From IMG/VR virus record IMGVR_UViG_3300028189_000001, positions 1 through 60,501 of that record: a DNA stretch of 60,501 bases; one strand, written 5' to 3'. Origin of the DNA: a virus. The position numbers were made by a program, and so were the translations under genes. The notes below the pieces were generated by a model. The model ran no database searches and was not told the origin of the DNA. It saw nothing but the letters and a program-made list of their open reading frames with translations. Positions 4,122 to 60,501 of the stretch are shown here, piece by piece. Each line of letters begins with the position of its first letter. The stretch's first letter is position 1.

Positions 4122-4265
4122 TGGACACTTCCACACCTATTTATGGTGACACTTTACACATACCTAAGATTATATTTTAATTTTAATATATTACATATGC
4201 TATAGACATTTAGCTGATAGCGTCAGCTCAGCTCTAAAAAAAAGGCGTTGGTCAAAAAGAAGAGA

Positions 4266-4297
4266 GGGTGATGAGGATTCGATTCCCTCATCACTCA
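4266..4297 (+). other. tRNA-like acceptor/T-arm minihelix in the 5' leader
   Basis: GGGTGAT (4266-4272) pairs with ATCACTC (4290-4296) as a 7-bp acceptor-like stem stacked directly on a T-arm-like hairpin with the loop TTCGATT (4278-4284). Positions 54-58 of a tRNA (T, T, C, R, A) are all matched; the 53-61 pair is A-C, not G-C. No D-arm or anticodon arm is present between the stems, so this is not a functional tRNA. It lies 38 nt before ATG 4335. It could be an RNase P/Z processing signal or a relic of a tRNA. A second example is at 59787-59829. Confidence 0.45.
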
Positions 4298-4334
4298 CTA
4301 TTAAATTTTAATTCTAATTAAACACAAATTTATT

Positions 4335-4937
4335 ATGAGTAACACTAAAGATTACACAAATGTTTTTAACACATTGAATTCAATTGATGTTAAACCAATG
4401 ATTGAAAAGAAGGGTAAGATGAATTACGTTTCTTGGTCACACGCTTGGCGTTCAGTCAAGACATTATTCCCTAACGCCACACGAAAAGTATACGAGGCAG
4501 AGAATGGCTTGAACTATTTCACAGATGGAAGAACTTGCTTTGTAAAAGTTGGAGTAACTATTAATGATGAGGAGATGATTGATTATCTACCTATCATGGA
4601 CTATCGGATGCAGAGTATTACTGCTGACAAGGTAACTTCAATGGATGTTAATAAGGCTATACAACGTAGTATGACCAAGGCTATAGCTATGCATGGACTT
4701 GGCTTAGAGTTATGGTATGGTGAGGACTTGCCAGTTGAGGAGAAGAAAGACCCTAACAAAAAAGCTAAGCTATCTACCGACTCTCCTAACTATGACAAGG
4801 TATTGGTATTTATAGAGGGCAAGGCTAAGTCAGGAGTATCATTCGCAAAATGTATGACTGACATTGAGAAGAAGTATGAGGTAACACCTCAAACTAAAAA
4901 AACTCTTAGTGCTAAATATAAATCAGCATCAGTCTAA
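4335..4937 (+). CDS. Rad52-like single-strand annealing protein (DUF1071)
   Basis: 200 aa. The segment from YVSWSHAWRSVKTLFPNATR (about residues 31-50) through VTINDEEMIDYLPIMDYRMQ to DVNKAIQRSMTKAIAMHGLG (about 104-123) is the signature of DUF1071/Sak3-type annealing proteins, members of the Rad52 superfamily used in phage recombination. The last ~60 residues are a basic, less conserved tail. It would anneal single strands made by the exonuclease encoded next, whose ATG overlaps this stop codon region (4937). Sole missing partner is a classic OB-fold SSB, supplied perhaps by 5673-5972. Confidence 0.85.
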   Translation: MSNTKDYTNVFNTLNSIDVKPMIEKKGKMNYVSWSHAWRSVKTLFPNATRKVYEAENGLNYFTDGRTCFVKVGVTINDEEMIDYLPIMDYRMQSITADKVTSMDVNKAIQRSMTKAIAMHGLGLELWYGEDLPVEEKKDPNKKAKLSTDSPNYDKVLVFIEGKAKSGVSFAKCMTDIEKKYEVTPQTKKTLSAKYKSASV

Positions 4938-56624: not shown

Positions 56625-58196
56625 CTATACCTCCCCTTCTCTAGCAATAGTAACAATACTATTGGTGCTTAAGATTGTTACAGCTACAGACACAGCATTC
56701 TGTAATGCTTGCCTTGTTACCTTCGTAGGGTCTATGATTCCCATATTAATCATATTCCCACGGTTTAACGTTACCATATCATACCCTACTCCTTTTTCAC
56801 TAAACATATTATCAGGATATAGTGAGTCACCATTTTGTGATGCGTTCGCACAAATTTGTATCATTGGTGAACGTAATGCTTTATACATTATTTTATCTAA
56901 TGGCGTGTCTCCGCAGCAATACTTCGTAGCAATCTCTGCCAACGCTACCCCACCTCCTGATAATATTCCTTCCTCAGTAGCAGAGCGTACAGCTAGTACC
57001 GCATCCTCTACCCTGTCAAATAATTCTTTCTGCTCTATATCAGAGTTTCCTCCAACAAATATCTGCCCAATAGAGCCTGTTAAAGCAGCAACACGACTTA
57101 GTATAAACTCTTTGTCAGCCTTGGTATTACTCACGCTATCAAGGGCAAGCAATTGGTTCACTCTAACAGTTACCAACTCAGGGTCTATACTGTCGTGCTT
57201 TATTAATATTGTATCATCTCTAGACACTACAACCTTATGTGCTAAGCCCAAGTCCTGCTCAGTAATTAGAGATAGGTCATCACCAGTCTTCTCAGAAAAA
57301 TATGTCGCTCCTGTCGCAACAGCTATGTCTTGCATCAGCTCATGCTGACGGTAACCAAATTGTGGTGGAGGAACAGTTGCAATCTTTAAGTTACGCTTCA
57401 TCACATTGGCAGCCAGTGTGTTAGTCACATTGACCGATGTGGGAGCTATAATTAATAACGACTGCCCTTTCTTTATAACAGGCTCCAACACCTTCTCTAT
57501 CTGTAAAACATTTGATATCTCAGCGTCTGATACCAAGAGGCGAACGTCATTCTCAAAAATTACCTCGTCCTTCTTCTGGTCGTTTATAAATAATGGAGTA
57601 GTATAACCCCTGTCAAAACGTATACCGTCTGTTGTCTTATAATATGTCTCTGGTGTGTCACTCTTCTCAACAGTAACAATCCCATCCTTGCCCACCTCAT
57701 TGTAGCACTTAGATATCAGACCGCCCACAAAATGGTCGTTGTTTGAACTTATTATCGCCACATCCTTTAAACGCTTCTTTGATACAGACCTGCTCTTTTT
57801 CTTTAACTCACCTATCACAAACTTAGTCTCGTTAGTTATGTCACGCAATAATTGAGTCCTGTTATCAGTCATGTGCTCAAACCCACACTTGACAAACGCC
57901 TCAGCCAATACAATGGAAGTAGTAGTGCCATCACCAGCAGATGATGCCGTCCGCTCAGCAGCCTCCCTCATCATCCTAACAGCTAAGTTCTCAACTGGGT
58001 CAATAAGCTCTATTGATTTAGCAACAGTCACACCATCCTTGGTCACAGTCAAACCCTGTGTGTGATTAGGTGACTCCATTAGAACAGTGTTGCCGCTACT
58101 GCCTAATGTGCTCTTGACAGTCTTGGATATCTTTGTAATACCCTCGATTAATTTCTTCTGCCCGTCATCACCAAATGTTAAAGTCTTTGGATTCAT
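56625..58196 (-). CDS. groEL: Chaperonin GroEL (phage-encoded)
   Basis: 523 aa (bacterial GroEL ~545). TVTKDGVTVAKSIEL (50-64), SAGDGTTTS (86-94, catalytic Asp89, equivalent to E. coli Asp87), the apical domain and DRVEDAVLAVRSATEEGILSGGG near the C-terminus with the conserved Asp are present, so the ATPase and fold appear intact. The C-terminal GGM repeats are missing. With its own GroES it probably folds the capsid or tail proteins. First gene of the leftward arm, with a promoter at 58220-58227. Confidence 0.95.
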   Translation of the reverse strand: MNPKTLTFGDDGQKKLIEGITKISKTVKSTLGSSGNTVLMESPNHTQGLTVTKDGVTVAKSIELIDPVENLAVRMMREAAERTASSAGDGTTTSIVLAEAFVKCGFEHMTDNRTQLLRDITNETKFVIGELKKKSRSVSKKRLKDVAIISSNNDHFVGGLISKCYNEVGKDGIVTVEKSDTPETYYKTTDGIRFDRGYTTPLFINDQKKDEVIFENDVRLLVSDAEISNVLQIEKVLEPVIKKGQSLLIIAPTSVNVTNTLAANVMKRNLKIATVPPPQFGYRQHELMQDIAVATGATYFSEKTGDDLSLITEQDLGLAHKVVVSRDDTILIKHDSIDPELVTVRVNQLLALDSVSNTKADKEFILSRVAALTGSIGQIFVGGNSDIEQKELFDRVEDAVLAVRSATEEGILSGGGVALAEIATKYCCGDTPLDKIMYKALRSPMIQICANASQNGDSLYPDNMFSEKGVGYDMVTLNRGNMINMGIIDPTKVTRQALQNAVSVAVTILSTNSIVTIAREGEV

Positions 58197-58589: not shown

Positions 58590-58890
58590 TTGGGTTATAT
58601 AATAAATTTTAAGTCACGCCCCCCAAAAGAAAAGTTGATTTTTATTTCCTCCCCCCCTCCACATTTCAGATTCCTTCCCCCATTTTTTTGCCGTTTTTCC
58701 TCGCCCGTATAGGATACGCACACGCATGTTTCCTTTCCAAGCGAGAGGGAATCTTCTGCCGTTTTGCGTGAAACATCCTTGTAACACGCTGAGGGTGAGG
58801 GCGTAACCCCTCCATACTTATTCTGCATACATATTTAATCCATTATGATTCTCCGATAACATTCTGATACTCCGACATTTGTAAAATAAA
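58590..58890. other. Non-coding C-rich region, unexplained
   Basis: About 300 bp without a credible gene. Poly-pyrimidine tracts (including C6 and C7 runs, 58619-58690) are followed by a mixed-composition part with the long-range pair ATGTTTC/GAAACAT (58726 and 58770 area) and by GGGTGAGGGCGTAACCCC. A 77-codon minus-strand ORF (58595-58828) is rejected as low-complexity. It could be a small RNA, an origin part or a packaging site. Confidence 0.5.
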
Positions 58891-58922
58891 TTTGGTAATG
58901 TCAAAAAATGGTTGTAGATTTG
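58891..58922 (+). promoter_or_regulatory. Main early promoter (TTG-N20-TAGATTTG)
   Basis: TTG at 58892-58894 and TAGATTTG at 58915-58922 are separated by exactly 20 nt, a full match to the Bacteroidota -33/-7 consensus and the best in the window. Transcription would start near 58929 and proceed through the structured leader into the early genes. Confidence 0.8.
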
Positions 58923-58928
58923 CAGTAT

Positions 58929-59255
58929 CAATCAACGATAAGTGTAGTTCGCACTTCTAAAACTGGACTGGGTGGCTATCGCCACTCTCTCGCCAAAACG
59001 ACACCTATAAGCTAAAAGCGAATGGGCGTTATTGTGGATAGGGCTTCTGTTGAGAAACACATAGCCATCCCGTTGAATGGGTTGAATAAAACATTCAAGC
59101 GATAACGTAAAAGGTGTTGTGGAGCGTGAGCAAAAATGTGACTATGGTGGTTGCGTGATGGGTATATTACACCCACAACCATACAAATTCGCCACAGCCT
59201 TGCATCCATTGGGTGTGAGGCTTTTGGTGGTATAACTAACTAATAAATAATTATT
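58929..59255 (+). ncRNA. Structured ~330-nt leader or non-coding RNA
   Basis: Downstream of the early promoter a string of stable hairpins appears: AAGTG/CACTT (58940-58956); GTGGC-TATC-GCCAC (58972-58985); a stem GGCT/AGCC with an inner TGTT-GAGA-AACA, that is a GNRA tetraloop (59036-59070); TTGAATG/CATTCAA (59073-59098); nested GTGG, TGGTTG/CAACCA and TGGGT/ACCCA (59119-59195); and finally the family hairpin with ATAACTAA (59196-59239). It is less AT-rich than its surroundings and contains no open frame. Either a regulatory 5' UTR or an independent ncRNA. Confidence 0.6.
59196..59239 (+). promoter_or_regulatory. Leader hairpin plus ATAACTAA element (copy D)
   Basis: The stem 59196-59207 with 59211-59222 (loop ATT) is the same as copy E at 91-117 except that T-A and A-T pairs become A-T and T-G, keeping the pairing. 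GGTGGTATAACTAA follows in both. It is the last element of the structured leader, 17 nt before ATG 59256. Confidence 0.65.
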
Positions 59256-59480
59256 ATGAAAATAACAACTAAAAGATTTTGTGCAGGAGAGTATTATGTA
59301 TATAGAGATGGTACTTATACTGGAACAATAAGTAATTTCACTACTGAAAAAGGTGTATGGGCTGTATTCGATGAGGATAACAACTGGCTTGGAACAACAG
59401 ATACAAAATGGTATTATTTAGATGCCTGTTTGCAGAATAATGAAGGTGCTGATTTATGGAATATATACAATAATAAATAA
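59256..59480 (+). CDS. First early protein, unknown function (74 aa)
   Basis: 74 aa starting MKITTKRFCAGEYYVYRDGT; beta-rich, aromatic (Tyr/Trp), acidic at the C-terminus. First gene after the main early promoter and the structured leader, so probably the earliest made. This suggests host takeover, but no family or motif is recognised. Confidence 0.65.
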   Translation: MKITTKRFCAGEYYVYRDGTYTGTISNFTTEKGVWAVFDEDNNWLGTTDTKWYYLDACLQNNEGADLWNIYNNK

Positions 59481-59786: not shown

Positions 59787-59829
59787 AGATATTATGGTAC
59801 TCTGGAGGGTTCGAATCCCTCCATATCTA
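59787..59829 (+). other. tRNA-like minihelix between two early genes
   Basis: A perfect T-arm: GAGGG (59805-59809), loop TTCGAAT, CCCTC (59817-59821). The acceptor strand ATATCT (59823-59828) pairs with AGATAT (59787-59792), leaving A59829 as discriminator-like base. Only 12 nt separate the 5' acceptor strand and the T-arm, so D- and anticodon arms are missing. It lies 43 nt before ATG 59872, a position much like that of 4266-4297. Confidence 0.5.
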
Positions 59830-60066: not shown

Positions 60067-60074
60067 CATAACAA

Positions 60075-60103
60075 GGGATGGCATATTGCCCTCCCATAAC
60101 TAA
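60075..60103 (+). promoter_or_regulatory. Leader hairpin plus ATAACTAA element (copy C)
   Basis: GGGATGGCA (60075-60083) pairs with TGCCCTCCC (60087-60095) with one T-C mismatch, loop TAT, followed at once by ATAACTAA. It lies 8 nt after a stop and 12 nt before ATG 60116, like copies A and B. Confidence 0.55.
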
Positions 60104-60115
60104 AACATTAAAAAA

Positions 60116-60454
60116 ATGATAACTTTAAATATTGGATTAAACGATAAAGATACTCAAAAGCAAATTGATATTAATCTTGCTAGAGAGTTATCACAATGTA
60201 CTTACTCACGCTTAGAAAAAAGCGATACAGAACTAACATTAATTTGTGCAGTTAAAAATGATGTTGTTACACTAGACTATATCAATAACTTACTAGAGAA
60301 ACTTAATCAGGACTGCATTGCCGTTAAACTTAGTAATGGTAATGGATACCTAATTCACCATAAGAACCCTACTAAATACTGGGGTGACTTTAACGATGAA
60401 TATTTTATACCAATAACAAAAACTGGAGGAATGCCTAACAATTTTTTTAGATAA
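60116..60454 (+). CDS. Early protein, unknown function (112 aa)
   Basis: 112 aa starting MITLNIGLNDKDTQKQIDIN, with ARELSQCTYSRLEKSDTELTLIC, a central helix-strand unit (VTLDYINNLLEKLNQDCIAV) and a C-terminus KNPTKYWGDFNDEYFIPITK. Compact alpha/beta protein with two Cys. Unknown family. Its last 80 bases lie in the overlap and are duplicated at bases 1-80; on the circle the next gene is the 31-aa membrane protein at 168. Confidence 0.7.
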   Translation: MITLNIGLNDKDTQKQIDINLARELSQCTYSRLEKSDTELTLICAVKNDVVTLDYINNLLEKLNQDCIAVKLSNGNGYLIHHKNPTKYWGDFNDEYFIPITKTGGMPNNFFR

Positions 60455-60501
60455 TACACTTAAAAGCCTTGCTACCATTGGTAGTGAGGCTTAAGGTGGT
60501 A
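60375..60501. repeat. Terminal overlap, right copy (circular contig)
   Basis: Identical to bases 1-127. See the left copy: it shows that the contig closes as a circle of 60,374 bp. Confidence 0.93.

Follow-up and report, generated by a model that had tools for sequence, protein, structure and literature searches.

What is the stretch of about 330 nucleotides that lies between a promoter and the first gene of the early-type arm in this virus? An earlier note on the DNA had proposed a structured leader or a new non-coding RNA. We analysed the whole virus record of 60,501 bases (the window) together with related phage loci. The leader is a real structured leader, and its surroundings hold two uncatalogued families of RNA elements, one of box-tailed hairpins and one of miniature tRNA-like elements.

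An untranslated leader at the start of the early-type arm

Because bases 1–127 of the window equal its last 127 (60375–60501), the genome is probably complete and closes circularly. The minus strand encodes terminase, portal, other virion proteins and GroEL; the plus strand forms the early-type arm, with a Sak-like annealing protein, an exonuclease and helicases. Protein relatives are podoviruses, for example MW202828 and Flavobacterium phage elemo. The leader stands at the start of the plus-strand arm, upstream of the divergent groEL gene (Table 1). In the region between the two, pyrimidine-rich tracts (CCTCCCCCCCTCC and CCTTCCCCCATTTTTTTG) are found at 58610–58700, and the sign of the GC skew switches nearby.

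The promoter sequence, TTTGGTAATGTCAAAAAATGGTTGTAGATTTG, fully matches the Bacteroidetes −33/−7 consensus TTTG/TAnnTTTG (PMC6847099); the earlier note had called it a consensus promoter. Given the spacing of 4–5 nt between the −7 element and the transcription start (PMC6847099), transcription is predicted to start near 58927. The full consensus occurs three times in the genome, compared with 1.6 ± 1.4 by chance, and the promoter call therefore rests on position and orientation and not on rarity. The interval 58927–59255 contains no ORF of note, the first plausible gene beginning at 59256, and its GC content of 0.425 exceeds that of the upstream (0.330) and downstream (0.308) flanks. Both the lack of an ORF over about 330 nt and the composition unlike the AT-rich neighbours, noticed earlier, are thus borne out.

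Table 1 Features of the leader locus and its surroundings in the window
Feature	Position	Strand	Remarks
GroEL gene	56625–58196	−	
Bacteroidota-type promoter, TTTG-N20-TAGATTTG	58891–58922	+	TTTG, −33; TAGATTTG, −7
Leader body, untranslated, multi-branched predicted fold	58927–59191	+	z −2.79; MFE structure
3' hairpin, GCCUUGCAUCC-AUU-GGGUGUGAGGC, then box UUUUGGUGGUAU	59192–59233	+	best R3 match in window, E 1.3e-7
First gene of the unit, 74 aa	59256–59480	+	start codon 22 nt past the 3' hairpin
Mini-tRNA-like element, AGATAT-TATGGTACTCT-GGAGGG(TTCGAAT)CCCTCC-ATATCT	59787–59828	+ (leader's strand)	R1 41.2 bits
Second hairpin copy	60461–60501 (= 87–128 through the end repeat 1–127 = 60375–60501)	+	R3 E 0.0093 at 87–128

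Fold of the leader

The whole leader has a significant fold of −101.6 kcal/mol (z −3.76), which none of 600 shuffles equalled; its antisense scores more weakly (z −1.92). The leader contains seven hairpins whose stem is 6 bp or longer and whose loop is 3–8 nt, as against 3.5 ± 1.5 in shuffled sequence (8 of 300 shuffles reach seven). The count of at least six hairpins given in the earlier note agrees with this, and the GNRA tetraloop hairpin that it singled out, TGTT-GAGA-AACA, is present at 59048–59059. The predicted body is composed of hairpins at 58940–58956 and 58970–58987, a long-range helix closing approximately 58998–59118, and a further part at 59136–59186. When the 3' hairpin is removed, the body (58927–59190, z −2.79) is matched by 5 of 600 shuffles. 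As 7.5% of equal-sized windows of the genome reach z −2.5, a rough figure from 16 shuffles each, the body is no folding outlier and only mildly exceptional. A scan with 200-nt windows gave scores of −1.5 for the one that begins at 58801 and −2.0 for the one at 59001. A second untranslated structured leader, at 4127–4334 (z −3.6; 0 of 600 shuffles as good), follows a promoter-like box, TATCTTTG, and ends in a T-arm-like hairpin (GATTCGATTCC), after which a gene begins at 4335.

No Rfam 15 family matches in the window at the gathering score, in accord with the earlier statement that the RNA belongs to no recognised class; at E values up to 10, three matches fall near the leader and none inside it. 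The leader has no blastn homologue in phage records. Searches with the leader against about 140 related loci by blastn and nhmmer recovered the 3' hairpin only, and the search of bacterial and archaeal genomes with a neighbouring protein yielded none. These results bear on the idea of a processive antitermination leader like put of phage HK022, in which the nascent fold would bind the polymerase and carry it past terminators of the early operon. A compact, hairpin-rich RNA made from a host-type promoter at the start of an early-type operon would suit that role, but the lack of an Rfam match and the unconserved leader sequence among relatives make it very unlikely.

A family of box-tailed hairpins

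At its 3' end the leader contains an RNA element that is genuine and conserved. These last 42 nt belong to an uncatalogued, intergenic family of hairpins followed by the box UUUUGGURGUA. In the relative L061, 12 such hairpins with a UUGGURGUA box lie on a single strand, mostly directly upstream of genes; L064 has at least four copies, and weaker members are found in L065, L080, L084, L142 and others. The covariance model R3, built from 16 sequences of L061 and L064 with none from the window and run unfiltered over the window, ranks the leader hairpin first and the copy at 87–128 second. This second copy is 84% identical over 60465–60501, and the changes in its stem are compensatory.

Among the L061/L064 hairpins, 95.6% of cells are paired (75.9% when shuffled). 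Their covariation score is 0.558 compared with 0.174 shuffled, and much lower with the partner slid; it describes the L061/L064 subfamily alone, out of 34 hairpins whose subfamilies MAFFT sets one column out of register. Covariation above background in homologues, to which the earlier note had looked for support, is accordingly found for the 3' hairpin family. The suggestion of a new non-coding RNA is supported only in part: the last 42 nt covary and have homologues, but they constitute an intergenic element that precedes other genes too, and the body has no homologue.

Most copies lie 1–35 nt past the upstream stop codon and 0–37 nt ahead of the next start codon. Some copies lie farther from the following ATG gene (40 aa or more): for two of L061/L064 the distance is 138 and 318 nt, and for the one at 87–128 of the window it is 146 nt. 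Another recurring intergenic hairpin, of the GGGAGGGCA-TTT-TGCCCTCC type and followed by ATAACTAAA and a start region, is found at 848–898, 1980–2028 and 60069–60105. Because hairpins stand before each gene, we considered hairpin promoters of an N4-type virion RNA polymerase; Pfam detects no polymerase domain in the proteins of 3331 and 1616 aa.

An intrinsic terminator was ruled out as a reading of the 3' hairpin: UUUUGGUGG comes after it, the terminator scan has no entry for it, and several L061 copies lack a U-run. Another reading is a free-standing phage small RNA that acts in trans on the host, for example on a polymerase, ribosome or nuclease, its position as a leader being incidental and the hairpin being its 3' end. 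The strong fold and a consensus promoter of its own would fit such an RNA, and natural processing of the tRNA-like 3' domain in the leaders of L006 and L099 (see below) would release a discrete RNA. We nevertheless judge it unlikely, since at 59233 there is no proper U-run terminator, a gene begins 22 nt further on, and the body is unconserved even where the next genes are 70–90% identical.

Leaders of related phages

Long untranslated leaders are found at the same or the corresponding place in L006, L099, L061 (153 nt), MW202828 (373 nt) and Flavobacterium phage elemo (approximately 245 nt), with a recurring range of about 150–370 nt; some other relatives have short leaders at the same place. 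A long leader is thus common here and its sequence is not conserved. Together with the promoter, the untranslated interval, the significant fold and the gene close behind the hairpin, these leaders uphold the structured leader of the earlier note. For elemo, 68 records contain the leader, all at least 99% identical; its fold is weakly better than shuffles (z −1.8), and neither the hairpin model nor the mini-tRNA model makes a confident match in the elemo genome.

In L006 and L099 the adjacent genes are retained: the homologue of 60116–60454 is 81–88% identical, and that of the first gene (59256–59480) is 71% identical in L006, where it lies downstream of the tRNA-like leader. Both leaders sit at the same place under a TAnnTTTG-type promoter. 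Blastn and nhmmer find no homology between them and the window leader, and the alignment has no shared blocks. The two can be aligned to each other, and their consensus fold keeps 53 of 53 pairs, 10 of them changed on both sides compared with 4.9 shuffled and at most 1 slid, in a comparison of two sequences only from which the tested fold was itself derived. Their 3' domain is tRNA-like, with an acceptor stem, a GG linker, a long helix and a T-arm with a UUCGAAU or UUCGACU loop. These domains (371–465 in L006; approximately 408–506 in L099) covary between the two and are preceded by predicted pseudoknotted helices. A DNA pattern of the L006/L099 leader matches those two only among viral contigs, and at the gathering score Rfam finds no tmRNA or other family in the relatives' leaders. 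Model R1, run unfiltered, finds no tRNA-like domain of acceptor stem and T-arm on the plus strand of the window leader, and the L006 and L099 leaders lack the box-tailed hairpin. As each kind of leader lacks the module of the other, hairpin and tRNA-like domain look interchangeable.

The differences in sequence among the relatives' leaders argue against a single conserved non-coding RNA with a fixed fold. They would also fit a reading in which the 3' hairpin and the promoter alone matter, while the untranslated body drifts in sequence and folds as it does by chance: a z of −2.8 is reached by several percent of genome windows, blastn and nhmmer found no homologue of the body among the related loci, and the leaders of relatives are completely different. 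This is possible but doubtful, given that leaders of about 150–370 nt recur here in several relatives, compared with a mean of 33 nt in F. johnsoniae (PMC6847099), that the two comparable leaders, those of L006 and L099, covary, and that the leader exceeds both flanks in GC content.

Miniature tRNA-like elements between genes

Located 550 nt downstream of the leader, 6 nt past one gene and 43 nt ahead of the next, is a mini-tRNA-like element with six acceptor pairs, an 11-nt linker containing GG, six T-stem pairs and a T-loop, a much shorter form of the linker and T-arm of the L006 leader. Its R1 score (Table 1) is not independent, the element being one of the model's training sequences. By sequence it has no D or anticodon arm, and ARAGORN calls no tRNA or tmRNA in the window.

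In viral contigs the linker and T-arm pattern matched at least 120 stretches; of 80 examined among the matches listed, 37 have a complementary acceptor stem 5 bp or more in length. When all loci were scanned with 12 perfect pairs required, 56 sequences were returned, whereas 3.06 Mb of reversed sequence gave none. Of the 56, at least three (L007, L018 and L117) resemble the 3' half of an ordinary tRNA-Arg gene. In an alignment of 39 sequences, 97% of cells are paired (54.5% shuffled) and the covariation score is 1.083 (0.208 shuffled). Selection accounts for part of the paired percentage, since the pattern fixed the linker and T-loop and the sequences were picked for complete pairing; it does not account for the variety of stems or for the empty control. 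Many of the elements lie 6–12 nt past a stop codon. Phage contig L233 contains six, most of them at gene borders, and others occur in L005, L006, L015, L188, L205, L237 and further contigs, as well as in contigs of bacterial and archaeal genome records (Lactobacillus, Lachnospiraceae, Dysgonomonas, Sphingobacteriaceae and others). The family has no Rfam match above threshold, and we found no description of it in the open-access literature searched. It is a more important lead than the leader itself.

A decayed element at approximately 687–740 of L099 has a 3' acceptor strand that fits the tRNA-like domain of the leader and not its own 5' strand, as if a mini element and the leader domain had recombined at their common T-arm. 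A second group of matches (L160, L178, L190, L194, L203 and similar) has the T-arm CCGG(TTCGAGT)CCGG followed by CCCTGACT or similar; it has no acceptor strand nearby and may represent a longer tRNA-like RNA.

A possible role in processing of early RNA

We propose, with a probability of roughly one half, that the stretch is the 5' leader of an early operon and that its end is formed by an intergenic RNA punctuation module of an interchangeable kind, probably for processing or protection of the mRNA. Transcription would be initiated near 58927 by host RNA polymerase that carries the primary sigma factor of Bacteroidota, and the leader would fold during its synthesis. The module directly before the first gene, the hairpin with box UUUUGGUGGUAU here and the tRNA-like domain in L006 and L099, and the modules of both kinds that recur between the following genes, would then be targets of host processing enzymes at the RNA level, the hairpins for an RNase III-like enzyme and the tRNA-like elements for RNase P or RNase Z. 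Cleavage would yield separate segments of the polycistronic RNA, each with protected ends, and free the leader as a stable RNA.

The part of a tRNA that RNase P and RNase Z recognise is the acceptor/T-arm minihelix with its elbow, which puts these two enzymes first as candidates for the mini elements. For the hairpins, a weaker candidate is RNase III, an enzyme for which their stems of 11–15 bp are short. Against processing, the mini elements have no encoded CCA, an aid to bacterial RNase P. Alternatively, the hairpin may influence translation, as it adjoins start codons, where structure tunes initiation in Flavobacterium (PMC6847099). The wider proposal, that many phages punctuate polycistronic RNAs with tRNA mimics and box-tailed hairpins cut by the host, the leader being the first released segment and a stable phage RNA, is put forward tentatively as a less probable reading.

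Should the modules prove to be sites of processing, phages of Bacteroidota and of other groups would control early expression at the RNA level through borrowed tRNA-processing enzymes, and many structured, unannotated gaps between phage genes would be explained. Such borrowing is known from mitochondria, and we found no phage example in the open-access literature searched. The question can be approached in a cultured phage–host pair with Flavobacterium phage elemo, which has a long leader at the corresponding place.

Comparison with known systems

The early region of phage T7 contains intergenic RNase III hairpins in its polycistronic RNA, on the same strand and near stop and start codons. The hairpins of the window and its relatives are placed likewise, but are shorter (11–15 bp) and are followed by a conserved box, UUUUGGURGUA, and their cleavage is something we infer. 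In T4-type phages, stem-loops lie between small early genes and may move with gene cassettes. The term promoter-early stem-loop (PeSL) occurs in PMC4503421. The present hairpins also lie between genes, but their copies have no obvious promoter and carry the conserved 3' box.

The 3' domain of the L006 and L099 leaders resembles the tRNA-like domain of tmRNA in its acceptor stem, its D-loop-like linker, which contains GG and has no D-stem, and its T-arm, but the order of its domains is different. In mitochondria, intergenic tRNAs or tRNA-like t-elements punctuate transcripts and mark the sites of RNase P and RNase Z. The phage mini elements, although reduced to an acceptor stem, a GG linker and a T-arm and only presumed to be processed, are likewise tRNA-like and likewise lie between genes.
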